Shown one piece after another: positions 7,017 to 19,405 of a DNA stretch of 21,051 nucleotides. The stretch is from a virus. The stretch is from IMG/VR virus record IMGVR_UViG_3300034061_004126, positions 1 through 21,051 of that record. The stretch is one strand, 5' to 3'. A model generated the notes under the pieces. It worked only from the letters and a program-made list of their open reading frames with translations, searched no databases and was not told the origin of the DNA. Both the position numbers and the translations under genes were made by a program. Each line of letters starts with the position of its first letter. Position 1 is the stretch's first letter.

Positions 7017-7382
7017 TTACTTCGCGACCTCCGGCGGCGCTGTCCCTGCGGTCGTGATGCCGCTACGGCCGGGACCGGCCGGATGGTCGTCTTCGAGCGA
7101 CATGACCTCGTAGATGGCGTTCTCGAGGTCACGACGGAGCCTGGCGAAAATGCCCTGGCAGTGGGCCACGGCCTCGACGTGGTGCCGAAATACCCGCTGG
7201 TCCGTCGTCGGCCAGTAGTGGTCGACGCGGCCGTCGTCGTAGTGCAGCAGCTCGTACCCTCGCTGCGGCCGCTCGAACGTGGCCCGCCGGATCCGGTAGC
7301 AGGGCCGCTGGTCGTTCGAGATCCACGCGAACGCTTCCCAGACGGTCTCTCCGTGCTCGAACCGATCAGAATGGGATGTCAT
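7017..7382 (-). CDS. Hypothetical 121-residue early protein
   Basis: I do not recognise this protein. It begins MTSHSDRFEHGETVWEAFAW, has an aromatic central part with YELLHYDDGRVDHYWPTT, a histidine-containing helix RHHVEAVAHCQGIFARLRR, and a low-complexity C-terminus rich in A, G, P and T. A GGAGGG Shine-Dalgarno lies eight bases upstream. It overlaps the end of the SSB-like gene by 17 nt, so expression is coupled. The stretch between its stop and the next gene (6922-7016) holds the next Shine-Dalgarno and nothing else I can recognise. Confidence 0.68.
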   Translation of the reverse strand: MTSHSDRFEHGETVWEAFAWISNDQRPCYRIRRATFERPQRGYELLHYDDGRVDHYWPTTDQRVFRHHVEAVAHCQGIFARLRRDLENAIYEVMSLEDDHPAGPGRSGITTAGTAPPEVAK

Positions 7383-7833
7383 CGGGCGACCCTCCCTGGC
7401 CGGCGGCTTCGACCTTTTGCTTCGAGGTCCGGGCCGCGGCCTTCGCCGGCGGGGCGGCCGTCCCGGGGTTGGCCGACGCGGCGAACCCGTTAACGTAGAT
7501 CACCGGCTCCCCGGTCGTCTTCTTCGTGCCGCGCTTCGTCGTGACGATCACCCGCCGACCGACCGCGTCGTCGCCCAGGTCCTGGTCGCGGGGGATCCCC
7601 AGCGCGTCCAGGAGTTGCATCGCCGACTTGTGGTCCCGCTTCTGTGACGGGTCCAGCCACTTCTCGATCGGCGAGTATTCGCCCTCGACCGGCTGGAGCG
7701 TGACGACCAGCGCCGTTCGGCTCTGGTCCTTGGCGAACCACTCCTTCACCTTGACGATCTCGCACTCGTGATCCCCGTCCGGCAGCAGCTGCTCCGCCGC
7801 CTCGTAGTCCTGGTCGAACTGTTCAAACCGCAT
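7366..7833 (-). CDS. SSB-like protein with acidic DDIPF tail
   Basis: A 155-residue protein starting MRFEQFDQDYEAAEQLLPDG at the ATG 7833, with GGAGGAG upstream. The first ~115 residues are beta-rich and resemble small phage proteins (DUF669-like) that act as single-strand DNA binding or recombination accessory proteins: DHECEIVKVKEWFAKDQSRT, then a strand VVTLQPVEGEYSPIEKWL. The linker is A-, P- and K-rich, and the last residues are SPDDIPF. An acidic tail ending D-D-I-P-F is the well-known partner-binding tip of bacterial SSB. The Sak4-like ATPase lies one gene upstream, and Sak4 proteins are reported to work with phage SSB. The OB fold itself cannot be proven from sequence by eye. Confidence 0.68.
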   Translation of the reverse strand: MRFEQFDQDYEAAEQLLPDGDHECEIVKVKEWFAKDQSRTALVVTLQPVEGEYSPIEKWLDPSQKRDHKSAMQLLDALGIPRDQDLGDDAVGRRVIVTTKRGTKKTTGEPVIYVNGFAASANPGTAAPPAKAAARTSKQKVEAAGQGGSPDDIPF

Positions 7834-8098
7834 GGGCCGACTCCTCCCTGACTCGCAAGACCAAACCCTCGCGGTCCGCATACGCTCGGACCGCCTCAAC
7901 GTGTTCCGGCTGATATGAAAAGTGGCCGTAGGCCTTCGGCGGTGGCCACAGGCCCGCGGCCTCGAGGACCCGTTTCACCTCCCAGATCCCCATCGCGATC
8001 CGCTCGTCGATCAGCAGCTGCTCGAGCTGCCGGCGAGTGATCCCGGCCGCGGGCCAGTCGCCCCGCATCCGCGTCCAGGTGGTGTGCCATTCAGGCAT
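7823..8098 (-). CDS. Hypothetical 91-residue protein between recombination genes
   Basis: The protein begins MPEWHTTWTRMRGDWPAAG and contains ITRRQLEQLLIDERIAMGIW, an initial helix pair, then VKRVLEAAGLWPPPKAYGHF and VEAVRAYADREGLVL. This helical layout is compatible with a small DNA-binding domain (two helices followed by a wing), though no standard motif is clear. A GGAGGT Shine-Dalgarno stands five bases before the ATG at 8098. It overlaps both neighbours (8 nt with the Sak4-like gene, 11 nt with the SSB-like gene), so it probably acts with them. Function unknown. Confidence 0.66.
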   Translation of the reverse strand: MPEWHTTWTRMRGDWPAAGITRRQLEQLLIDERIAMGIWEVKRVLEAAGLWPPPKAYGHFSYQPEHVEAVRAYADREGLVLRVREESAHAV

Positions 8099-9023
8099 TC
8101 GCCACCTCCGGCTCGATCTGGTCGTGTCGCTGGCCGATCAGGGCCTCGAGCTGCTTGACCTGGTCGGCCGTCAGCTGGCCCTCGCTGCCCATCTGCTCGA
8201 CGTAGTCGCCGGCCTTCCCCAGGGCCTCGACGATCTTGCAGGCGGCGATCCGTTCGGCCAGCCGGTCGAACAGGCTGGGCTCCGCCCGGGTGGCGGACGG
8301 GGCCGGCGCGGCCGCGAAGATCGGGCCCAGGGCCTCGATCGTCATCGGGATCTCCGGGGCCAGCCCGAACCGGTTCTTCGCGTCCCAGGCCGCGGTCCGC
8401 TCCGTGAACAGGACCCGCTCCTTTCCGCCCTTGGCCCGGTTGCGGCCGTCAGCACCCTCGACGATCCGCGTCCGGTAGTTGGCGAACAGCAGGAGGTCGG
8501 ACCATTCCTTGACCAGCGGCCCGACCTGTTTCGACAGCTTCAGCTCGTAGCGGTCCCAGCCCTCGTCCATGTCGGGCGGGCTCGTCCGCTTCACGGTCGA
8601 GTGACCGACCAGCAGGACGTGGACGCCACGGTCGACGATCTGGTCGCAGAGGCCCAGCAGCGTCGAGAACTGCTCGGCCAGCTTCACGAACCCCTTCCCG
8701 AATCCGTAGTCCTCCACGGACCGCTTTCCGTCCTTCTTCAGCATGTGATCGAGCAGCGACCGTTCCGCCCAGTCGATCGAGTCGATGACGACCGTCCCGA
8801 ACCCCTGGGGGTCGCCGCTCAGATCGACGAGCGCCCCGTAGAGGGTCATCCAGTCCGGGCACCGCACCCGGGCCACGTCGAGCCGCCCCGTCCCGTCCTC
8901 GGTGTCGAGGATCACCGGGTTGGGCCACTGGGCGGCCAGCGTCGACTTCCCGATCCCCTCGGTCCCGTAGGCCACCCCGCGGACGGCCCCCTTCCTGATC
9001 CCTCGCTCGATCTTCAGCGCCAT
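8091..9023 (-). CDS. Sak4-like RecA-fold ATPase (single-strand annealing/recombination)
   Basis: A 310-residue P-loop NTPase of the AAA_24 type. It starts MALKIERGIRKGAVRGVAYG at 9023 with AAGGAG upstream; the longer frame reaching 9188 is an artefact. The Walker A motif GTEGIGKST is at residues 20-28, the Walker B-like FGTVVIDSIDW at about 75-85, and a sensor-like strand HVLLVGHST at about 145-153. The last ~60 residues are helical. RecA-core proteins of this architecture in phages (Sak4) pair single-stranded DNA and need SSB. The nearby SSB-like gene and RusA support a recombination module. Some members are annotated only as ATP-binding proteins, so annealing activity is inferred from the family. 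Confidence 0.8.
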   Translation of the reverse strand: MALKIERGIRKGAVRGVAYGTEGIGKSTLAAQWPNPVILDTEDGTGRLDVARVRCPDWMTLYGALVDLSGDPQGFGTVVIDSIDWAERSLLDHMLKKDGKRSVEDYGFGKGFVKLAEQFSTLLGLCDQIVDRGVHVLLVGHSTVKRTSPPDMDEGWDRYELKLSKQVGPLVKEWSDLLLFANYRTRIVEGADGRNRAKGGKERVLFTERTAAWDAKNRFGLAPEIPMTIEALGPIFAAAPAPSATRAEPSLFDRLAERIAACKIVEALGKAGDYVEQMGSEGQLTADQVKQLEALIGQRHDQIEPEVANA

Positions 9024-9024
9024 C

Positions 9025-9246
9025 TCACTCTCCTTGGGTAAAAACGCCGCGGGCGGGCTCCGCCACCCGCGGCCGGTTGCATCCCTGTCCCCGCCGGCTC
9101 CGCCGGCTTCCTGCGGCCCGGCATCCCGTGCCGTGCCGCTCCTCCTGAATCTGGATCGCGACCAGGGCCAGCCCAGCCAGGGCCACAACCACGAAGGTGG
9201 CCGCCATGGCCGCGACCGCGATCACGAGACCGTGGACGATGGTCAC
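9025..9246 (-). CDS. Small single-pass membrane protein
   Basis: A 73-residue protein from a GTG at 9246, which overlaps the upstream stop (GTGA) and has a strong GGAGGT Shine-Dalgarno six bases away. Residues about 5-32 (VHGLVIAVAAMAATFVVV then ALAGLALVAIQIQ) form one long hydrophobic segment. The rest is basic and polar (RAAGSRRSRRGQGCNRPR). This layout, short N-terminus then membrane helix then positive tail, suggests the basic part stays in the cytoplasm. Its place in the early operon argues against a holin, and superinfection exclusion or anchoring are possibilities. There is no evidence for any single function. Confidence 0.6.
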   Translation of the reverse strand: MTIVHGLVIAVAAMAATFVVVALAGLALVAIQIQEERHGTGCRAAGSRRSRRGQGCNRPRVAEPARGVFTQGE

Positions 9247-9734: not shown

Positions 9735-9764
9735 GCCGATGTCTCCTGTGAAGTGTCGGTATCT

Positions 9765-9833
9765 CTAAAACGAACCGGCCGCGATCAGCCGGGCAACGAT
9801 CACCAGCAGCTCGATCCAAAAGTCGACGTTCAT
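9765..9833 (-). CDS. 22-residue hydrophobic leader-type peptide
   Basis: This short frame begins at the ATG 9833 with a strong GGAGGA Shine-Dalgarno and ends with TAG at 9765. It encodes MNVDFWIELL followed by VIVARLIAAGSF, one hydrophobic helix. It would be the first reading frame after the promoter at 9859-9887, about 20 bases from the expected transcript start. Small membrane peptides and leader peptides with this layout are common but hard to prove by length alone. The support is position plus Shine-Dalgarno. Confidence 0.45.
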   Translation of the reverse strand: MNVDFWIELLVIVARLIAAGSF

Positions 9834-9857
9834 GTCGTCCTCCGTGACGATGGGCCA

Positions 9858-9887
9858 GACGATATGGAGTTATCTCCAAATCGTCAA
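9858..9887 (-). promoter_or_regulatory. Sigma70-like early promoter covered by a palindromic operator
   Basis: On the minus strand, TTGACG (9887-9882) is followed by a 17-base spacer and TATCGT (9864-9859); these match the -35 and -10 boxes in five of six and four of six positions. The interval is almost entirely a 28-bp near-palindrome at 9858-9885, with arms gacgatatggag and ctccaaatcgtc (11 of 12 pairs) around ttat. An A7 run on the minus strand just upstream of the -35 could act as an UP element. A repressor dimer bound here would block polymerase, so the early operon is probably switched at this site. The binding protein is unknown. Confidence 0.6.
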
Positions 9888-9920
9888 CAGCATTTTTTTC
9901 GGCTGCAAAACCGTGGCACT

Positions 9921-10172
9921 TTAGGCCGATTTCCGCCCGCCTGGGCGGCGGCCGCAGAGCTTGCCGGCCTTGCGGAGCCGCTCTCGCTCCGCGGCCAGGC
10001 GCTCGATCTCGTCGGCGTCGTAGACGAAGGCCCGCGCGGACACTTGTTCCGACCAGATTTCGCCGCGGGTGGCCATGCCGCGGATGTGCGAAACGCGGCA
10101 TCCGTAGATTTCCGCGGCTTCCTGGGTGCCGCATACGCGGCGCTTCGGTGGCAGTCGGACGGACATCTTCAT
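9921..10172 (-). CDS. Excisionase-like small HTH protein
   Basis: An 83-residue basic protein starting MKMSVRLPPKRRVCGTQEAA (ATG 10172; the ATG at 10166 is an alternative). Residues about 14-45 (GTQEAAEIYGCRVSHIRGMA and TRGEIWSEQVSARAF) fit the MerR/excisionase-type winged helix-turn-helix, in which a tyrosine- or cysteine-containing turn is followed by a wing. The C-terminus is highly basic (RKAGKLCGRRPGGRKSA). Placed head-to-head with the integrase across 284 bp, it is the expected position for a recombination directionality factor, or for a repressor of the early promoter just downstream. The two roles cannot be told apart by sequence. No good Shine-Dalgarno is visible; the nearest GGAGG is about 18 bases away. 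Confidence 0.65.
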   Translation of the reverse strand: MKMSVRLPPKRRVCGTQEAAEIYGCRVSHIRGMATRGEIWSEQVSARAFVYDADEIERLAAERERLRKAGKLCGRRPGGRKSA

Positions 10173-11365: not shown

Positions 11366-12646
11366 TCACCCCCGGTGGTCCACCTGATGCTGGCGGAGCA
11401 GCTCGCGGGGGACGGCCTTGGCGACGGCCTCCGCGGCCCTGATCACATGGTCCGCGGTCACGCCCCGCGGCGGGCGGCAGCAGAGCCGGGCCCCGTCGAT
11501 CGAGGCCGTCCGGTGGACCCGGACCGGCGCGGGGTCGTACTCGAGCGGGGCCCGGATCGGGCGGCCTTCGCGATCGACGTCGATCACCCGGCCCTGGTCG
11601 TCGTAGTTCATCACCTCGACCGCCGTCCCGGTCCCGATGCCGCGGAGCGTGGCCAGGGCCGGGGCGTGGGCCGCGAGTCGCCGCTGGCCGCACACGAAGA
11701 CGTAGGCCAGGTCGATCCCCGTCTTCTTCGTGAACTCTCGGACCGTCTTCCCCGTGCCGTGGAGATCGACGAACAGCGTCCCCGGGGCCAGCCGCTTGAC
11801 GTATGTCAAGAAATCCGCCGACGGGTTCCGGAGGGTCTGCCGGCTGGCGTCGAAAATCGTCACCGGCTCGCGGTAGAGCGCGTGGTAAACCTTCGAGAGG
11901 AGGATCGAGTCGCGCGAGACGAAGGCCAGGCGGGCCGGCCGGGCCGTGAACGCGTAATCGTGGACCAGAGCGGCGGCCAGCAGCAGGAAGGGGACGTTCG
12001 CTGCGGCGGACCCGTCCCACCAGATATGCTCGTCGGAGCCGCGGGGGTGCGGATTCATCAGCCGGGCGGCCCTGGCGGCCCCGGCCACCTCCCAGAATCC
12101 GTCCCGCTCCCAGGCGGTCTCCTGGCTCGTCGGCTTGCCGGCGGCGAATCGCTCGGCCCGGAGCCCGGCGGCCCGGGGTTGCTCCCAGTCGCTGCGCTGG
12201 TTGTCTCCGACGTGGAGGTCGGCCTGGCGGGCCGCCTCCGACTTCCACCACTGACCCGACCATTTGGCATCCCACGAGGTCACGATCTGGACCGTCTTCG
12301 GGATCCCGATCCGGTCGGCCAGCTCGCGGACCTGGATCGTGGAAAAGTAGGTGTCCGACACGATCCGGTCCCCCGGGCGGACCCTCGTCACGTTCTCCGC
12401 GATCGGGTAGGCCCCGGCCACTTCCGCGGCCCACTCGTCGCGCTTCAGCTGCTCGACCCGGGCGGCCGTCCAGCCGGTGATCTCGCGGACCTGGTCGAAG
12501 ATCCCGGCCCAGGTCTTATCGCTCCGCCGCTCGGCCTCCTGGCGGATCCGGACGTAGGCCGCCCCGCCGACGGCCTCGAACACCCGCCACGGTTCGTGGC
12601 CGGCGGCCCGACCCATCAGCGTGTCGAAGAAATCCCAGGATGTCAT
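11366..12646 (-). CDS. HAD-like hydrolase of glycan-associated type (COG5610-like)
   Basis: A 426-residue protein, start set by a one-base TGATG overlap with the GT25 gene (ATG at 12646). The N-terminal domain has HAD motifs: WDFFDTL (D5, D8), RIVSDTYFS (S97, D98) and HVGDNQRSD (G147, D148, D153). The C-terminal domain has the pattern FVSRDSILLSKVYHAL (243-257), an ASRQTLRNP segment and LFVDLHGTGKT (291-301), also seen in the predicted HAD proteins found in polysaccharide clusters. The partners in known loci are glycosyltransferases, and here a GT25-like gene sits directly upstream. It may act on sugar phosphates or polymer ends. The substrate is unknown. No terminator separates it from the integrase; the two genes converge with touching stop codons. 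Confidence 0.72.
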   Translation of the reverse strand: MTSWDFFDTLMGRAAGHEPWRVFEAVGGAAYVRIRQEAERRSDKTWAGIFDQVREITGWTAARVEQLKRDEWAAEVAGAYPIAENVTRVRPGDRIVSDTYFSTIQVRELADRIGIPKTVQIVTSWDAKWSGQWWKSEAARQADLHVGDNQRSDWEQPRAAGLRAERFAAGKPTSQETAWERDGFWEVAGAARAARLMNPHPRGSDEHIWWDGSAAANVPFLLLAAALVHDYAFTARPARLAFVSRDSILLSKVYHALYREPVTIFDASRQTLRNPSADFLTYVKRLAPGTLFVDLHGTGKTVREFTKKTGIDLAYVFVCGQRRLAAHAPALATLRGIGTGTAVEVMNYDDQGRVIDVDREGRPIRAPLEYDPAPVRVHRTASIDGARLCCRPPRGVTADHVIRAAEAVAKAVPRELLRQHQVDHRG

Positions 12647-13257
12647 CACCAGCTCCTCGCGCGGACCTTCCGACCGGAGACGTCGCTGACCCCGTCGGCC
12701 TGGCCGCAGAGCCACGGAGCCACCGCGTAGACCGCGATCCGCCTCTTCCAGTGCAGGATCCCGAAGTGGTGGTCGATGTGGTGCCGGGCGGTCCACAGGG
12801 CCGGGTCGGGCCGCAGGTGGTCGCGGAGCAGCTCGAGGGCCGGGCGGCCGAAGATCGCGTAGGCGTGGGTCCGGTTGACGTTCCGCCCGCGGACGATGCC
12901 GGGCGGCCCCGGCTCGGCCCGGGCCAGGTGCTGGCCGCCCAGGTAGAGCATCTGGCAATCGGCCGGGACCTCGAGGCCCGCGAGCCGCTCGGCGAAGTCG
13001 GGGACGAACGTGGCGTCGTCCTCGAAGATCAGGATCGACTCGATGTCGATCGCCAGCGCGTAGTCGATCACGGCCCGGTGGGACTGGTAGCAGCCCCAGG
13101 CCCCGGGCGTGGTCGCCCACCATAGCGGCGGCCGGTCCTCCTGGCCGTCGATGGCGGGGTAGGGCAACGCCGCGAGCCGGCCGTCGAGCCGCTCGTAGAA
13201 CCCTGCCAGCCGGTCCGGCCGGCGGGCCAGCGAGATCACGACGACGCGGTCGAACAT
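12646..13257 (-). CDS. Glycosyltransferase family 25-like protein
   Basis: It probably adds a sugar to a surface glycan or to a virion protein. The 203-residue protein starts MFDRVVVISLARRPDR, the LARRxDR N-terminal signature of the family 25 (LPS biosynthesis) group. It also has the conserved GCYQSHRAVIDYA (55-67) and ILIFEDDATF (75-84, with EDD at 79-81 as nucleotide-sugar/metal site). It is short for the family, which often exceeds 240 residues, so the acceptor part is reduced. It overlaps the upstream gene by 22 nt and the HAD gene by one base. Together with the HAD gene it forms a small glycan-modification cassette inside the phage late region. Which glycan is changed (cell surface or virion) cannot be read. 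Confidence 0.8.
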   Translation of the reverse strand: MFDRVVVISLARRPDRLAGFYERLDGRLAALPYPAIDGQEDRPPLWWATTPGAWGCYQSHRAVIDYALAIDIESILIFEDDATFVPDFAERLAGLEVPADCQMLYLGGQHLARAEPGPPGIVRGRNVNRTHAYAIFGRPALELLRDHLRPDPALWTARHHIDHHFGILHWKRRIAVYAVAPWLCGQADGVSDVSGRKVRARSW

Positions 13258-13748
13258 GGCCCGGCCCCCGGAGGCGTGCAGCCGGGCCCGCGGAGCGTGT
13301 CCGCGTTCAGGTGGGGCCAGAGGGCCTCCGAATGGATCGCGGCCAGCAGGCCCCAGGCGGCGTGGGGCAGATGGTCCTCCGACCGATCGCCGGCCAGGTA
13401 CTGGTAGATGTGCCTGATCGAGTGGTTCAACAGATCGTGGACCGGCATCCCCCGCTCCCAGTTGAAGTCGGAGTATTTGGCGGCCCCCTCCGCACACGTC
13501 CGGGCGACGGCCTCCAGGCCGATCGGCGACACGAGGTCGTAACGGGTGGCCTCCGCGTCACTCGACCGGACGGCCCCGGTCTGAAACTGCACCACGTCGC
13601 CGGACCGCTCTTTCATCGCCTGCTCCTTCAGTGTTCGGATCATCGCGAGAGCGTAGGAGGCTAACGTCCCCCCGGTGCCAGTCCAGCAGTTCGCCGGCCC
13701 GATCCGGCGGGCGAGCTGCTCGGCCTGCTCGAGGTCCTCGGGGCTCAC
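13236..13748 (-). CDS. dATP/dGTP diphosphohydrolase-type protein (dGTP_diPhyd_N/DUF5664)
   Basis: A 170-residue protein. The core (counted from the internal ATG 13616) has FQTGAVRSSDAEATRYDLVS, GAAKYSDFNWERGMPVHDLL and DRSEDHLPHAAWGLLAAIH. These match a phage-associated family annotated as the N-terminal domain of dATP/dGTP diphosphohydrolases; MazZ of cyanophage S-2L, as I recall, is one characterised member. Enzymes of this kind remove pyrophosphate from purine dNTPs. The frame begins at a GTG (13748) overlapping the metallophosphoesterase stop (GTGA), with GAGGAG upstream. A second start at 13616 has a perfect AAGGAG six bases away, so a 126-residue form may also be made. The residues before it (GPANCWTGTGGTLASYALAM) look like real protein. 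Activity is inferred; the family is common in phages without modified bases. Confidence 0.7.
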   Translation of the reverse strand: MSPEDLEQAEQLARRIGPANCWTGTGGTLASYALAMIRTLKEQAMKERSGDVVQFQTGAVRSSDAEATRYDLVSPIGLEAVARTCAEGAAKYSDFNWERGMPVHDLLNHSIRHIYQYLAGDRSEDHLPHAAWGLLAAIHSEALWPHLNADTLRGPGCTPPGAGPCSTASS

Positions 13749-14764
13749 GAACTCCTCACCTTCCCGTCGGCCGTGATCCGGAGATTCTCGACGTCGAACT
13801 CGCCGTCGGCGTGGATCGTCGCCACCGCGAAGCCCCAGTTCCAGGAGTTGATTCGCGCGTATTCCGGCGTGAGATCGCACAGGCACCCCGTCGACCAGTT
13901 AAACGTCTCGCGGTGGTCGAAGTCGGCCTCCGCGTGGCCGCTCGTGCGGTGGTGGTGGCCGACCAGGCCCGTGTGCTTCATCCGCATGTAGGCCCCGCGG
14001 GCCGGGTTCACCGGTGACGACATCCCCTTCGGCAGTTCGTGGCCGTGGAGGATCGGGAGCCGGCCCGCCATGATCGGCCGCTGATCCTCGACCAGGTCGA
14101 TCCCGTGGTCGTCGAGGTTCAGCCAGGCCTGGAGCGACATCCGCCGCTCCTTCGACAGCTCCGGCGCGTGCTGCCAGATGTAATGCTGCCAGCGTTCCTC
14201 GTGGTTCCCGGCCTTGTAGACGATCGGGATCCCGGGGAACGTCTCCCGGATCCAGCCGACGAAGTCGCGGACGGCCTCCAGCTCGCCGGAGAAGTCGCGT
14301 TGCCGCGGGTCCTTCGTGTAGCGGGAGATCGCGTAGAAGTCGGCGATGTCGCCGTTTAGGACCAGGGCCTCGATCCCGATCTCGACCAGGTGGTCGACGG
14401 CGGCGCGGACCGCGATCTCGGAGTGATACGGGACGTGAACGTCCGACAGGATTCCGACGCGGCCCGTCACCTCGAGGCGGTAGCGGGTCCACGGGCGGGC
14501 GATCGACGGCGGGAGCGTGTAGTTGACTCCCGCCTGGCGGGGCTCGCGGCTGGCGGCGGCCTTCACGACCTTCCGGTCGGCATTCCCATGGACCCCCAGC
14601 TGGCGCATGATCCGATTTCGCGCCTGGTCGATCGTCAGGGCCCCGTTCGACTCCGCGACCAGCATCCGGGCCAGGCCCCGGGCGGCATGGTCGGGGTTCT
14701 CGCGAACAAGCCGGCGGGCGATCTCCGTGATCTGGTCGCCGCCTGGTGTGCCTTTCGGTGGCAT
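13745..14764 (-). CDS. Calcineurin-like metallophosphoesterase
   Basis: A 339-residue protein starting MPPKGTPGGDQITEIARRL at 14764, with GAGGAG upstream; the longer frame to 14866 is an artefact. Residues 102-339 have the five metallophosphatase motifs: GILSDVH (D108, H110), NGDIADF (D139), AGNHEE (N187, H188), ILHGHE (H240) and VGHHHR (H270, H271), which bind two metals. The first ~100 residues are helical and contain ITEIARRLVRENPDHAARGL followed by LTIDQARNRIMRQLGV, perhaps a helix-turn-helix-like N-terminus that binds DNA. Such enzymes may cleave phosphodiesters in nucleotides, DNA or RNA. The substrate cannot be told. It is the first gene of the cargo set that continues to the glycan genes. 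Confidence 0.85.
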   Translation of the reverse strand: MPPKGTPGGDQITEIARRLVRENPDHAARGLARMLVAESNGALTIDQARNRIMRQLGVHGNADRKVVKAAASREPRQAGVNYTLPPSIARPWTRYRLEVTGRVGILSDVHVPYHSEIAVRAAVDHLVEIGIEALVLNGDIADFYAISRYTKDPRQRDFSGELEAVRDFVGWIRETFPGIPIVYKAGNHEERWQHYIWQHAPELSKERRMSLQAWLNLDDHGIDLVEDQRPIMAGRLPILHGHELPKGMSSPVNPARGAYMRMKHTGLVGHHHRTSGHAEADFDHRETFNWSTGCLCDLTPEYARINSWNWGFAVATIHADGEFDVENLRITADGKVRSS

Positions 14765-14814
14765 CCTTGCCTCCTCTGGGGTGGGAACGCAGTCTGCCCG
14801 CCTCCGGCGACGAG

Positions 14815-15216
14815 TCAACTCGACACCGGCCCCCACTTGCCCACTGGGCAGGACTCGTTCGCCCAAGAGAGTTTGCTGACAAACTGCCGCTCACGCACGA
14901 CAGGGCAACCGCACTGGCGGCACGCTCGGCCGTCGAAGTGTTCGCACGTCTGGCAGATGGCGAACCGCTGGGCCACTTGCTCGTCGGTGGCACGGGGCAT
15001 CCCGGCGGCGACGTGGCGGGCCGCAGACCGTGCGAAGTTGGCGGCCCTCGTGACGAGCGACACGCCCGGCTTCGGCTTGGCGGGATAGGCCGGGTGCGTC
15101 TCGTCCACCGTGATCGTGTCGCCGTCATCGCTGACGATGCAGCCCCGCACTTCGTCTAGCGTGTAGCCCCGTTGAGCGCAGCGGGCGGCAAGGTGTGAGC
15201 GGCGGCACGAAATCAT
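14815..15216 (-). CDS. Zinc-ribbon protein, tail-tip neighbour
   Basis: A 133-residue protein starting MISCRRSHLAARCAQRGYTL; the start is fixed by an ATGA overlap with the Cys-rich gene. The first half has CIVSDDGDTITVDETHPAYP, a pattern I associate with phage-linked proteins in planctomycetes. The second half has a metal-binding zinc ribbon: AICQTCEHFDGRACRQCGCP and then a final cysteine in ESCPVGKWGP, so a CxxC pair, a CxxCxC triplet and one more Cys. About 50 bp lie between its stop and the next gene, with the Shine-Dalgarno of the metallophosphoesterase. It could be a structural or assembly protein, because it is transcribed after the tail genes. Confidence 0.7.
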   Translation of the reverse strand: MISCRRSHLAARCAQRGYTLDEVRGCIVSDDGDTITVDETHPAYPAKPKPGVSLVTRAANFARSAARHVAAGMPRATDEQVAQRFAICQTCEHFDGRACRQCGCPVVRERQFVSKLSWANESCPVGKWGPVSS

Positions 15217-15770
15217 GGCAGTGGGTTCGCAACCCCGGGGCGGCAGCACGGATCGCCCTGACATCCGCTACATGGGACGCAGTTCATGTTCGGGATTTCC
15301 TCGGTTGGCAGTTGCTCGCAGGGGCCGACGCTTCCGAATGCGAGGAAGTCCGTGCCGGGGAACTTCGGGCCGCCTAGATCGCCATCGCCTTGAGTGCCGC
15401 AGCACCCGCCGGAAATACTCAGCAATCCCGGTTGGTTCAGCGCCCACAGTGTCCTTGGCGGGTCAGCCCAAGGCGCAAAAAAACTAATAACTTTTTGTTC
15501 AGCCACAGCCATCGTCGCGCTGCAATACCCCGCCTCGTTCATCGCGTCTAGCATATCCTCGCCCCACCCAATTATGGTTGCGGCTGCGGCGTTTGCTTCC
15601 TCTTCTGTCTCCCAAGAGGTCACAGCGTCAAATGGATCGACGCCAAGCCGGTCGTATTCGAACGTAATCCCCGGGCAGTAGCAGCATCCGCCGCAGCAGC
15701 ACGCCTGCTCCGTGCCGACCTTGCCGTCACGCAGCACGACCTTGCCGTCTTGGAGCGTGATGAGCGTCAC
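15213..15770 (-). CDS. Cysteine-rich phage protein, probably tail-tip associated
   Basis: A 185-residue protein containing 15 cysteines. It starts at a GTG (15770) overlapping the upstream stop: MTLITLQDGKVVLRDGKVG then TEQACCCGGCCYCPGITFEY. Further Cys clusters are GGCCG near residue 132 and NCVPCSGCQGDPCCRP near the end. The central part is helical (TEEEANAAAATIIGWGEDM). The pattern suggests several metal sites or a disulfide-linked protein. The DNA is lower in G+C than the tail genes, and one stretch (15478-15500) has an A7 run and AT-ending codons. Similar openings occur in hypothetical proteins of planctomycete prophages. Function unknown. Confidence 0.68.
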   Translation of the reverse strand: MTLITLQDGKVVLRDGKVGTEQACCCGGCCYCPGITFEYDRLGVDPFDAVTSWETEEEANAAAATIIGWGEDMLDAMNEAGYCSATMAVAEQKVISFFAPWADPPRTLWALNQPGLLSISGGCCGTQGDGDLGGPKFPGTDFLAFGSVGPCEQLPTEEIPNMNCVPCSGCQGDPCCRPGVANPLP

Positions 15771-16273
15771 GACGACCCCTCTTCACACGAGGTAGTAGTG
15801 ATCCATTTCAGGCACCCATTTTCGTGCCCTAAAACCTGTGTTTCTCCAGGGTCGTAATCTGGAAGTTGCGTTAAGTCTTCTCCGCCGATGCCAGGGCAGT
15901 GACAGCCCCCCGACCCGTCTCCCTCGCCGACGCAGCTCTCGGCCTGGACCAGATACCAGCAACCGTTCTCGGCGAGGGCCAGCTTTACTATTCGGCCGCC
16001 GTTGACATCGAAGGACTGGTTATGGGCCAGCAGCGATTCTCCGCCGCTGCCATATCCTTCTTCGTCGCAGGAGTCCTCGAACACTAACGAGACTTCTTGG
16101 GTTTCACCTTTGATCCACGGCGCTACCGTCTTGCCAATCTTGATAGGTGTCCCGTCGTCCCCGACCGTCCGGAACTTCACCGGCGGCTGGTCGCGGTTGC
16201 CGCGCTCGTAGGCCCGGGTCGCGGCGATGATTCGCCGGGCTGATCCCTCGCCGAACTTTACTCCTTTCGCCAT
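15767..16273 (-). CDS. Cys-containing phage protein, second of the tail-tip trio
   Basis: A 168-residue protein starting at the ATG 16273 (TGATG overlap with the upstream stop; a GTG at 16276 is the alternative). The N-terminus is basic (KGVKFGEGSARRIIAATRA). The middle is strand-rich with VKFRTVGDDGTPIKIGKTVA and ALAENGCWYLVQAESC. The end has GGCHCPGIGGED and NGCLKWITTTSCEEG. It has seven cysteines and shares the motif GGCxCPGI with the next gene. The three genes here overlap, so they are probably made together, possibly as a tip complex. No known family recognised. Confidence 0.65.
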   Translation of the reverse strand: MAKGVKFGEGSARRIIAATRAYERGNRDQPPVKFRTVGDDGTPIKIGKTVAPWIKGETQEVSLVFEDSCDEEGYGSGGESLLAHNQSFDVNGGRIVKLALAENGCWYLVQAESCVGEGDGSGGCHCPGIGGEDLTQLPDYDPGETQVLGHENGCLKWITTTSCEEGSS

Positions 16274-17181
16274 CACGAGCTCCCGGCCAGGATCGCGGGC
16301 TCGCCGAAGACATCGCCGAAATCGGCCTCCTCGTAGACGTCGAACCCGTCGCCGTCATTCGCGACGAGCGGCTTCGTGCCGGCGGCCAGGGCCGTTCCGT
16401 CCGTGTCGAGGCCGACCGGCTGCTTCACCGGCTTTCCGTCGTCGGTCGTGATCGCCCGCTTGCCGCCGCTGCCGTCCAGCTCCATAAACCCCACGTCCCA
16501 CGGCATTAACTTCCACGTCCCGGGGTCGTAGCGGAACTCCCACTGGCTCTCGACGTAGGCCAGCGTCCCGGCGTCGTCGGCCCCGTTCAGCCGCGAGGTC
16601 GTGACCCGCTTCGCCCCCTTGAAGTAGGCCTTCCAGGTGAACTCCTCGCCGTCGGCCCAGGCCGCGTCGTTGATCCGTCCGTCCGCGGCGGCCACGTCGG
16701 CCTCGAGGCCGGCGTCGTCCTCGTAGCACCGCGTCAGGGTCCAGCCCTGCTCCTGGCGTTCCTTCTCGAGGCCCTCGATCGGGTCGCCCGCGGCGTTCAC
16801 GATCGATTCCCCATCGCGATCGGTGAACGCCGGGACGGTGGTCGCTCCGCCGGACCGCTCCCAGACGTCTTCCGGAATCCCGTTCTCCGTGACCTCCTTC
16901 CCCGCCGGGGGCGCGTAATACTGGACCGTGAGCGTCCACCGCATCCCGTCCCGGCCGACCGGCGACAGCTCGAACTCCTGGGCCTTCAGGGCCGGGAGGT
17001 CGAAATGGTCCGTCCCGTAGGTCAGGCCGATCGTTGCCGTCACCCCGGCCAGGATCTCCGCCTTACTGGTCAGGGGGCTGTCGGTGCGGATCTGCCACCG
17101 CTCGGTGGCCCGCATGGATTCCCCGTACTTGCCGGAGAGGCTGGTCCCTTCGACGATTCGTTCGTAGCTCACCCAGGCCAT
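16273..17181 (-). CDS. Probable distal tail / baseplate protein
   Basis: A 302-residue protein starting MAWVSYERIVEGTSLSGKYG directly after the tape measure gene, with GGAG upstream. It is strand-rich, with ATIGLTYGTDHFDLPALKAQ, MRWTLTVQYYAPPAGKEV, FTWKAYFKGAKRVTT and the repeated aromatic pattern WEFRYDPGTWKLMPWD. In siphophages the gene after the tape measure is usually the distal tail protein (Dit) or first baseplate hub protein, and this position plus beta-rich content is the main support. No catalytic motif is visible. Exact identity would need structure comparison. Confidence 0.55.
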   Translation of the reverse strand: MAWVSYERIVEGTSLSGKYGESMRATERWQIRTDSPLTSKAEILAGVTATIGLTYGTDHFDLPALKAQEFELSPVGRDGMRWTLTVQYYAPPAGKEVTENGIPEDVWERSGGATTVPAFTDRDGESIVNAAGDPIEGLEKERQEQGWTLTRCYEDDAGLEADVAAADGRINDAAWADGEEFTWKAYFKGAKRVTTSRLNGADDAGTLAYVESQWEFRYDPGTWKLMPWDVGFMELDGSGGKRAITTDDGKPVKQPVGLDTDGTALAAGTKPLVANDGDGFDVYEEADFGDVFGEPAILAGSS

Positions 17182-17184
17182 GGC

Positions 17185-18714
17185 TTAAAACTCCACCGCG
17201 AGATCGTCTTCGCCGCCAGACGTGTTGGCGGCGATCTGCTCGAGCGCCGACAGCTGCTGCTCCTGAACACTGTCCCCGCCCCGCATCAGGCGGAACATCT
17301 CCGCCACCCCTTCGCTCGACCGGCTGTCGATGCCCTTGATCGCCTGGGGCTCGACGGCCGCGGCCACCGACTGGGCCATCTGGTCGGCCACCCCGGACCC
17401 GGCCTCCTCGATCTGGCCGGCGGAGGCCTGGGCCTGGGCGATCGCAGAGTCGAGGGCCGTCGTGAGCGGTCCGGCCACGGCCGCCCCGGCCGCCGCCATG
17501 GCAGGGTCGCCGGTCATGGCGAACTCCATATTCTTGGCGGCGGAGTTGATGTTCTCCGTGATGCCCCGGTCGATCTCGGCGTTGAATGCCTGGGCCCCGG
17601 CGACCACCGAGTCGAGCGACGACGTGTCGAATCTCAGGAACTTACCGATCTGCTGGGCGATCGTCGCGAGCCCCTCGAAGGTCCCGCTGAACCCGCGGAC
17701 GACCAGGAGGAGCCCGACCTGTGCCGCGTCGAACACGCCGGCCAGGAAGGCCCCGGCCCGGCCCAGGAAGCCGACGACGTTGTTCCACTGGCCGCCGATC
17801 TGGGAGACGTATTCCCAGACCCCGGACAGGTTCGTAATCAGCCAGTCCCCGATCCCCGCCAGGAACCGGGCCCCCTGGAGGATCCCGTCCCCGATCGCCT
17901 GGCCGATGTTCGCCCCTCCGATCGAGCCGACAAGGTTCGTGAACGTGTCGGCCACGTTCTTCACGGCCGGGGCCAGGTAGGCGACCACTTGCTGGACGAC
18001 GCCGTTCATAGCCTGGCCGGCCAGCGTGAAGGCGTCGTTCATCGCCTCCACGTCCTGGCCCTGGGCCGTGGTCAGGGCAAGCCCCAGCCGCTCGGCCTGC
18101 TCGGCCGCCTGCTGAATGCCCTCGGCCCCGCCGGCGAACAGCGGCAGCAGCTGGGCCCCGGCCCGGCCGAACAGTTGAACGGCCGCGGCCGACCGCTGGG
18201 CCTCCGTCGGCAGTTCGGCGATCGCGGAGGAGATCGCCTGGAACCGCTCCGCGGCCGACATGCCGCCCAGCTCCTCGAGCGACAGCCCCAGGCCCTCGAA
18301 CGACTTGCGGGCCGTGGCCGACCCGTTGACGGCCTTCACGAAGGCGACGTCGGCCTTCGTCGCCGCGTTGGCGATCGAGTCCATTCCGACGCCGGCCAGG
18401 TCGCCCGCCAGGGCCAGCCCCGAAAACTCGCCGTACGTCATGCCGAGTCGGGCCGCCAGCTTGCTCTGGCTGTCGATCACCTGGGCCTGGGCGTTGCCCA
18501 TCGACACGAGCGACCGGACGTAACCCCCGGCCGCCGACATGATCCCGCCGAAAAACTGGGCCCCCTGGATCGCGACCAGCGTCCGCATGTTGCCCGCGAG
18601 CGACGAGACCTGGCCTTGCATCCGCCGCATCGACGACGCGGCCTGATTCACGCCGGTTACGAGCCCGCTCGAGTTGGCCGTGAAGACGGCCGAGACCTTG
18701 CCGATCTGAGACAC
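17185..18714 (-). CDS. Phage tail tape measure protein
   Basis: It sets tail length and is carried inside the tail tube. The 509-residue protein is almost fully helical, with many A, G and S. The N-terminal third has ANSSGLVTGVNQAASSMRRM and a segment SSLAGNMRTLVAIQGAQFFG, and the middle has hydrophobic stretches such as GLLLVVRGFSGTFEG near residue 330. It follows the tail chaperone pair, as in most siphophages. The start is a GTG at 18714 with GGAG six bases upstream. At about 0.15 nm per residue, the usual ratio, the tail would be near 76 nm long. This is short for a siphovirus, and the length is an inference. Confidence 0.9.
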   Translation of the reverse strand: MSQIGKVSAVFTANSSGLVTGVNQAASSMRRMQGQVSSLAGNMRTLVAIQGAQFFGGIMSAAGGYVRSLVSMGNAQAQVIDSQSKLAARLGMTYGEFSGLALAGDLAGVGMDSIANAATKADVAFVKAVNGSATARKSFEGLGLSLEELGGMSAAERFQAISSAIAELPTEAQRSAAAVQLFGRAGAQLLPLFAGGAEGIQQAAEQAERLGLALTTAQGQDVEAMNDAFTLAGQAMNGVVQQVVAYLAPAVKNVADTFTNLVGSIGGANIGQAIGDGILQGARFLAGIGDWLITNLSGVWEYVSQIGGQWNNVVGFLGRAGAFLAGVFDAAQVGLLLVVRGFSGTFEGLATIAQQIGKFLRFDTSSLDSVVAGAQAFNAEIDRGITENINSAAKNMEFAMTGDPAMAAAGAAVAGPLTTALDSAIAQAQASAGQIEEAGSGVADQMAQSVAAAVEPQAIKGIDSRSSEGVAEMFRLMRGGDSVQEQQLSALEQIAANTSGGEDDLAVEF

Positions 18715-19405
18715 CGCTTACTCCGTTTCTTCAGGCCCGGCAGGGCCGCGAGCCGGCCGCTGATTTCGTCATCGGTCAGGGCCACCTTCGGCCGGTACTC
18801 GTCGCCCTGGCGATAGGTGATCAGGAACCGCTCCTCGTCATGCTTGTCGAACTTGCCCACCAGCCCGGCCCGGATGAGGCTTGTCATCCGACCGGCCACG
18901 AGCCAGGGCTGGCCCCAGGGCTCGATCAGGTAGAAGGCCATCCACCGCCGCAGCTGCCGGCGGGTGATCCGCCGCTTGAAGTCCTCCACGTCCCATTCGT
19001 TCATCTCGAGGGCGAGCCGGTAGGTGAACAGCTCCCACGGGTCCGCCCTCAGTCTTTTTTTTCCTCTTCGACCTGTTCTTCCGTCGGGTCTTGCATGAGC
19101 GGGACGCAGAATCGGGCGATCTCGTCGATCACCTTCGGCTCGCTGGCGGCCAGGGCCTCGAGGGCCTCGTCGGTCTGGGGGACCGTCCGCTCGCCGCGCT
19201 CGTCGCAGAGCATCAGCTGAACGAGCCGGGCCGCCAGGGGCGCGTCCCCGCTCTGGTGCTTGTTGCACCACATGCGCCACTGATCCACGTCGCCGCTCGA
19301 CGGGTTGCGGACGAACACCTTCCGCCCGCCCAGCGACTTCACCTCGAGCTCGAGCGGTCCGCCCTTCAGCGCCGCGAGATTCAGCAGTTCATCGAAGGAG
19401 AGCAT
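18657..19405 (-). CDS. Tail assembly chaperone GT, made by -1 frameshift
   Basis: A fusion of the short chaperone (117 codons) and the downstream frame (132 residues) through a -1 shift at the A8 run, giving about 249 residues. The downstream part starts RLRADPWELFTYRL and has EWDVEDFKRRITRRQLRRW then MAFYLIEPWGQPWLV, a helical domain well known in the T half of siphophage G/GT chaperones (MSRRELxxWxAxxxxxPxG type). The frame has no good start of its own; the part of the open frame before the slip site is random antisense-like sequence. It overlaps the tape measure start by 58 nt. The chaperone coats the tape measure protein before tube assembly. Frame use is inference from pattern. Confidence 0.82.
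19049..19405 (-). CDS. Tail assembly chaperone G
   Basis: A 118-residue protein starting MLSFDELLNLAALKGGPLEL, with GGAG six bases upstream. The first half is strand-rich (LEVKSLGGRKVFVRNPSSGD) and the second helical, ending EEQVEEEKKD. Small acidic-tailed proteins of this size lie between the tail tube gene and the tape measure gene in most siphophages and are the first product of the frameshift pair. Its last codons contain the slip site, and the stop comes directly after it. The acidic tail and position fit the G part of the G/GT set. Confidence 0.82.
   Translation of the reverse strand: MLSFDELLNLAALKGGPLELEVKSLGGRKVFVRNPSSGDVDQWRMWCNKHQSGDAPLAARLVQLMLCDERGERTVPQTDEALEALAASEPKVIDEIARFCVPLMQDPTEEQVEEEKKD
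19055..19062 (-). other. Programmed -1 frameshift site (A8 slippery run)
   Basis: On the minus strand a run of eight A lies at the end of the short chaperone gene, read in frame as GAA AAA AAA GAC TGA. A slip back by one base on A-AAA-AAA continues as AGA CTG AGG GCG into the T frame. The stop of the first product lies four bases after the run. A GGG-CCC pair close downstream could form a small stem. The site also suits transcriptional slippage. Reading frames are seen directly; use in cells is inference. Confidence 0.8.

Follow-up and report, generated by a model that had tools for sequence, protein, structure and literature searches.

An exchange slot in a small cysteine-rich gene at the end of the tail genes of uncultured phages

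Why should three small neighbouring genes at the end of a phage tail operon encode so many cysteines, and what do their products do? We analysed a virus record of 21,051 nt (the window), in which the tail genes lie on the minus strand in the order tail terminator, probable tube proteins, tape-measure protein, D, B, A, C and metallophosphoesterase (Table 1). A sequence-only reading had described B, A and C as three consecutive cysteine-rich proteins, the first two related by a common motif, that carry metal clusters and might form a new type of tail tip. Its counts are correct: A has 15 cysteines in 185 residues, B has seven in 169 and C ends in a zinc-ribbon-like domain. C, however, is a mosaic partner of A and no paralogue. 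The low G+C content reported for two of the genes is also real, since A (61.1%) and B (59.8%) fall below the window as a whole (68.3%), and GC3 (68% in A and 69% in B) is ∼23 points lower than the 92% of the neighbouring D and tape-measure genes.

The locus and its genes

Table 1. Features of the locus and of the putative recombination functions, with positions in the window
Feature	Position	Strand	Description
A, whole gene	15213..15770	-	185 aa, 15 Cys; overlaps of 4 bp with B and with C
A, fixed leader	15693..15770	-	Codons 1-26 (MTLITLQDGKVVLRDGKVGTEQACCC); putative 5′ homology arm for the exchange
A, exchangeable body	15216..15692	-	159 aa, 12 Cys, pI 4.05
B	15767..16276	-	169 aa, 7 Cys; directly 5′ of A
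C	14815..15216	-	133 aa; cassette-linked N-terminal domain and zinc-ribbon C-terminus
C, N-terminal domain	15082..15216	-	Codons 1-45; moves together with the A body
C, 3′ crossover zone (ITVDETHPAYP)	15082..15114	-	Common backbone resumes here in four same-backbone phages
D	16273..17181	-	302 aa; candidate tail hub; 5′ of B in nearly all loci
Tape-measure protein	17185..18714	-	509 aa; match to phrog_9483, E 4e-35
Sak4-like single-strand annealing protein	8091..9038	-	Match to phrog_124, E 8e-41
Phage SSB, likely Sak4 partner	7366..7899	-	Match to phrog_378, E 4e-9

Viral contigs were scanned with A and 77 related loci were collected, all of them on metagenomic contigs. The order D-B-A-C, 3′ of the tape-measure gene, is kept across the related phages, and B lies directly 5′ of A in the loci examined, in most of them with the 4-bp overlap. 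Among the isolated phages of the collection searched, none matched A, B, C or D, and a search for a host in the collection of bacterial and archaeal genomes yielded no relative that could be confirmed. No sigma-70-like promoter was detected in positions 13600-19000 of the window. The literature searched holds no description of this system, although such an absence is not a proof of novelty.

The motif GGCxCPGI, said to be common to A and B, reads GGCHCPGI in B and GGCCYCPGI in A; the spacing differs and only C-x-CPGI is common. The closest relative of A (in locus L002) has CYCPAI at this site, and relatives of B (in L029, L081 and L082) have QGPGI, CCPNI or CKPPAV. In a structural model of B the motif (residues 123-130) falls within the loop of lowest confidence. 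As the motif is not conserved in the relatives of either protein, and A and B have no recognisable relationship, we see no sign of the proposed duplication or common fold. The rest of the B model (pLDDT 71.7) is a helix with an OB-like barrel; its matches, to ribosomal proteins and IF1, are weak (TM about 0.3, Z about 6) and we read it as an OB-like barrel and nothing further. The C-terminus of B (..GCLKWITTTSC) is conserved, with a C-terminal cysteine that is invariant in the main B type. Some phages (L037:6438-7973 and L060:8019-10004) have a larger B, of 511-661 aa and with 11 cysteines, so that B also accepts inserts.

The model of D (pLDDT 82.6) has a strand-helix-strand order that we read as two tube-like domains. 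It is most similar to phage proteins that are uncharacterised (E 3e-10). The solved structures that it matches with Z of 5-6 include tail and baseplate proteins, from Mu, monocin, Milano, Pa193 and others, and also ribosomal proteins. The model thus points weakly to D as a tail hub. A sequence-profile search of the PDB with A, B and D gave nothing useful.

The C gene probably starts with the ATG at 15216, rather than at 15264, as judged from the 4-bp overlap of this start with the A stop codon and from the conservation of the resulting 133-aa form in relatives. The C-terminal domain has six cysteines in a zinc-ribbon-like arrangement and resembles the small phage zinc ribbon phrog_13558 (E 6e-9), from which C differs by an additional N-terminal domain that moves together with the A body. 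Apart from this match and a weak one to DUF6171, nothing was found for C, and no chaperone family was among its matches.

Cassette exchange between the A leader and the start of C

What nearly all 77 loci have in common in A is limited to a 26-residue N-terminal leader (MTLITLQDGKVVLRDGKVGTEQACCC and slight variants of it), which ends in a triplet CCC that is invariant in the main leader type; since retrieval was anchored on A, this conservation at the protein level is partly so by construction, while identity of the leader at the DNA level is not. We compared leader DNA in 1139 locus pairs whose D proteins are <40% identical. The median identity is 80.8%, with values up to 100% and at least 95% in 41 of the 1139 pairs; for the 78 nt on either side of the leader the corresponding identities over all pairs are 33% (upstream) and 30% (downstream). 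Conserved residues use the same codon in 73.7% of cases in the leader versus 44.9% in D. This similarity is consistent with a leader region that has been transferred repeatedly; selection on the DNA may be an alternative source of it.

The leader family extends beyond the reach of our search, given that relatives of B at L081:8384 and L082:10500 are followed by A genes with other leaders (..DERACKCC.. and ..AATDTECCC..). The L002 leader also differs (MALVVDGGGLVNKGGALGTGQACCC).

Beyond residue 26 the A proteins fall into 23 sequence clusters and are unrelated between groups; close relatives have a conserved N-terminal part and a replaced C-terminal part, the body. For the body no match was found in Pfam, PHROGs or PDB. 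Comparison of profiles gave few links among the clusters: two groups are alike over their first 65 residues only, and the window body has a weak link (38% probability) to the largest body family, for which single-sequence scans returned only loci already known. The bodies are thus mosaics in their own right. Very long bodies with GGSGY-type repeats are present in L008:5768-7477 (543 aa) and L038:10001-12112 (677 aa), and repeats in the long A variants find matches among the structural proteins of phages (baseplate wedge, head closure).

Four phages have one backbone (92-98% DNA identity outside the slot) with four different A bodies. Two of them, L011 and L013, match the window at 97-98% over >10 kb, both sides of A combined; for L080 the identity is 96% across 5 kb upstream and 92% across 345 bp downstream, where the start of C is aligned. 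A further contig, L079, is 99.8% identical to the window up to its end just inside A. From codon 27 of A to the start of C the same-backbone phages are unrelated or strongly diverged: the match breaks where the leader ends and picks up again in C, where window and L011 are 57-73% identical over the first ∼100 nt and then 100% identical over the following 200 nt. Over the stretch compared, the only strongly variable backbone parts among window, L011 and L013 are the A slot and about 9747-10170. The latter region of the window adjoins an integrase and an excisionase-like ORF and is probably a lysogeny-control region.

Conversely, one body is found in differing backbones (window/L002, L013/L004, L003/L019, L023/L026, L030/L071 and L061/L076). 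L011 and L009, whose flanks are unrelated, are 100% identical between ∼nt 60 of A and ∼nt 100 of C. The window body is 92.7% identical in DNA to that of L002, which has another leader, another backbone and another C C-terminus. By the positions at which the backbone match stops and resumes, the 5′ crossovers map to the 78-bp leader and those on the 3′ side to ITVDETHPAYP in C, near its codons 36-45, and from these positions the mobile unit is the A body together with the N-terminus of C. The 3′ crossover zone includes the 18-mer CACGGTGGACGAGACGCA, present once each in 29 of 150 loci in a set that includes overlapping copies. Many A bodies end in NPLP; this is encoded by the DNA directly before the overlapping C start (AACCCACTGCCATGA) and probably results from the 3′ arm as a side effect.

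Within the limits of metagenomic contigs, cassette exchange at the A slot is shown; the exchange that had been suspected from G+C content is, in this direct form of replaced A bodies and C starts, far more strongly supported. Could the swaps be apparent only, with an assembler led by shared leader and C sequence to join different phages? All records are metagenomic contigs, and contigs often break just past the leader: seven ends fall in the 110 bp that lie 90-200 nt past the A start, where ∼1.5 are expected from the density in the next 2.8 kb (Poisson p about 0.001). With many bodies behind one leader an assembly would be expected to fork there. However, two joins would be needed per swapped contig, the L011 leader has base differences absent from both supposed parents, the same pattern is seen in contigs of different IMG data sets, and some common bodies, such as that of window and L002, have already diverged, unlike a fresh chimera. 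We thus regard misassembly as a very improbable source of the pattern. The two ends of a single 35-kb contig (IMGVR_UViG_3300043786_000899; loci L029 and L031) both lie at or near A, and the B genes there differ, pointing to two variants of the same phage within one sample.

The N-terminus of C follows the body. Codons 1 to about 40 are co-inherited with it, and body families retain their type of C N-terminus across backbones; the window is nearest to L002 in this part, despite unlike backbones, and differs from the same-backbone L011, L013 and L080. The commonest N-terminus is a 45-residue HLEARCRQRGYTLDEV domain; in several body families its place is taken by other small Cys/His domains or by domains of ∼200 residues (L030:4759-5529, L041:10111-10824, L042:6760-7551, L053:5831-6625 and L072:10432-11148). 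Some of the latter, in two body families, have a weak match to a glycosyltransferase DXD domain (Gly_transf_sug, E 0.005-0.01, below the Pfam cut-off), with C-terminal domains as elsewhere. The C-terminus of C varies separately from the N-terminus and comes in three types: a zinc ribbon, a GLGD..CGCxKRQ domain and one other. The second of these recurs in many C proteins as PGLGDMVAAGLSAVGITKERV..CGCxKRQxxLNxLGRKFGIG (for instance L003:4714-5001), alternating with the other two.

In polymorphic toxin loci a fixed N-terminus is followed by a variable C-terminus, and the next gene moves with the latter. The layout of A and C matches this, and one could take the A body as a tail-delivered toxin or other effector and the C N-terminus as its cognate immunity or control domain, which would explain their joint movement. 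Unlike immunity proteins, though, one C N-terminal type goes with many unrelated bodies; a toxin domain was searched for in the bodies and none was found, and some bodies bear the virion-structural repeats mentioned above. An effector role is in our judgement quite improbable. Because a single C N-terminal type serves unrelated bodies, the link is not strictly body-specific, and specificity is unproved.

The cysteines of the A bodies

The sequence-only reading preferred metal clusters to disulfides, and a metal-loaded tail-tip complex of A, B and C, in which the A cysteines bind Fe-S or Zn in the cytoplasm, has arguments in its favour. Iron-sulfur clusters in siphophage tail tips are real, the example being lambda gpL, a tail-tip protein with a [4Fe-4S] cluster domain (PMC10721106); C carries a zinc ribbon; and the CCC of the A leader and the C-terminal cysteine of B, invariant in their main types, could make a four-cysteine site, possibly one for metal. 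The resemblance to gpL is that of conserved cysteines in a tail-tip protein adjoining the hub. The differences are that no sequence similarity was found (PHROGs, Pfam and PDB gave no gpL-type match) and that the cysteines of the A body are not conserved in position. The gpL type has four conserved cysteines in one C-terminal iron-binding domain; the invariant cysteines here are the CCC of the A leader and one in B.

For the bodies the numbers point another way. After exclusion of the three leader cysteines, 21 of the 23 clusters have an even count (p 7e-5), and within families the count mostly shifts by pairs (6, 8, 14; 12, 14; 14, 16). At 50% clustering the even counts divide 12:15 into multiples of four and others. 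The positions of cysteines differ from body to body. Cysteine makes up 7% of body residues and histidine 0.4%, and CxxC is not enriched (z 0.9). A zinc-finger or ribbon body was rejected on the same figures. Odd counts occur in one body family of five members, whose C proteins have glycosyltransferase-like N-termini. Taken together, even counts, lack of CxxC enrichment and scant histidine favour paired cysteines over zinc or Fe-S sites; disulfides that form once the cell has lysed, or under oxidising conditions, would fit better, so metal clusters are disfavoured for the A body and the metal-loaded complex as a whole is hardly a likely account. That the three leader cysteines and the invariant cysteine of B form a joint is speculation.

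The bodies are acidic as well, with a median pI of 4.05 and a highest value of 4.56, and lysine is absent from 15 of 33. Since D, the tape-measure protein and the probable tube proteins are also acidic, this property alone is unremarkable.

A candidate receptor-binding tip

In the tail operon the genes for the tape measure and the candidate hub D come first, and A follows at the distal end. From the genes before it (tail terminator, tape measure, hub-like D) and from the kept order D-B-A-C, a tail-tip placement of A, B and C is plausible. With A where tips sit, with a fixed partner, and as nearly the sole strongly variable part of the backbone, an exchangeable tip is the best explanation; we consider A to be an exchangeable tail-tip protein, most likely a receptor-binding (adhesin) subunit on a D-B hub, with a probability of about 0.62.

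In siphophage receptor-binding proteins and tailspikes a conserved N-terminal anchor carries an exchanged C-terminus, and their genes stand at the end of the tail genes. A has the same fixed attachment part, replaceable recognition part and gene position; it differs in an anchor of only 26 residues that ends in CCC and in acidic, cysteine-rich bodies without known homologues. Swapping of tips in phage receptor-binding proteins is known as such, but we know of no case with edges so small and exact and with so many alternatives per slot. In Alteromonas phages A5, V22 and P24 the host-recognition modules consist of a tail fibre and a cognate chaperone (PMC10579305); there too a recognition gene at the tail end and a small next gene are common to otherwise unrelated phages, and the co-inheritance of the downstream gene is as in A and C. 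However, those modules are about ten syntenic genes with long fibres and DUF4376 chaperones, whereas the unit here is ∼0.6 kb with edges inside two genes and small cysteine-rich bodies, and has no sequence relation to them. Receptor-binding proteins diversified by DGRs (PMC6199706, PMC10743442) likewise have hypervariability confined to part of a tail gene, produced by adenine-directed substitution from a template repeat. Diversification of the DGR type was rejected for A, where bodies are replaced as whole domains and not by scattered adenine-directed substitutions.

Variability alone is silent on which selection acts. Instead of a receptor-binding part, A might be a decoration of the virion or surface under immune or defence pressure (host defence, superinfection exclusion), and the glycosyltransferase-like domains that move with some bodies are compatible with surface modification. 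We hold this to be unlikely, as A stands at the end of the tail genes, its coupling to B is fixed and no other tail-fibre candidate was recognised in the window.

If A is the receptor-binding tip, its fixed 26-residue leader would dock it onto B, and the body would be an acidic, probably disulfide-paired domain drawn from a pool common to many phages. One body would be replaced by another through homologous recombination at the 78-bp leader and at the short conserved codon 36-45 stretch of C; the C N-terminus would move with its A body and the C C-terminus would vary separately. Exchange at such short homology could plausibly be the work of the Sak4/SSB pair that the phage itself encodes; in phage HK620 annealing by Sak4 is stimulated by its SSB (PMC5928155). 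C would probably act as a body-linked partner of A and may serve in its assembly or modification.

A more specific version of the receptor-binding reading has unrelated temperate phages sharing small disulfide-rich acidic binding domains in the manner of plug and socket. The leader CCC and the C-terminal cysteine of B would form a four-cysteine joint, the body's own C partner (small Cys/His or glycosyltransferase-like) would assemble or modify it, and the DNA edges would stay similar as recombination handles. We put this forward tentatively, as a combination that is doubtful in its entirety.

The regularity of a leader followed by a replaceable body is invisible from one sequence alone. If the receptor-binding reading is true, the leader sequence by itself would allow metagenomes to be mined for the host-recognition domains of this group of uncultured phages, exchange of host range between unrelated phages via a common pool would become testable, and the bodies would be an unusual instance of paired-cysteine adhesins in phages. 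The fixed start with its swappable body resembles a natural plug-in system for changing the binding target of a phage.

One further observation concerns the region 3′ of the tail genes, where a GT25-like glycosyltransferase and a large protein without a family match adjoin each other (window 11366-12658 and 12646-13497).
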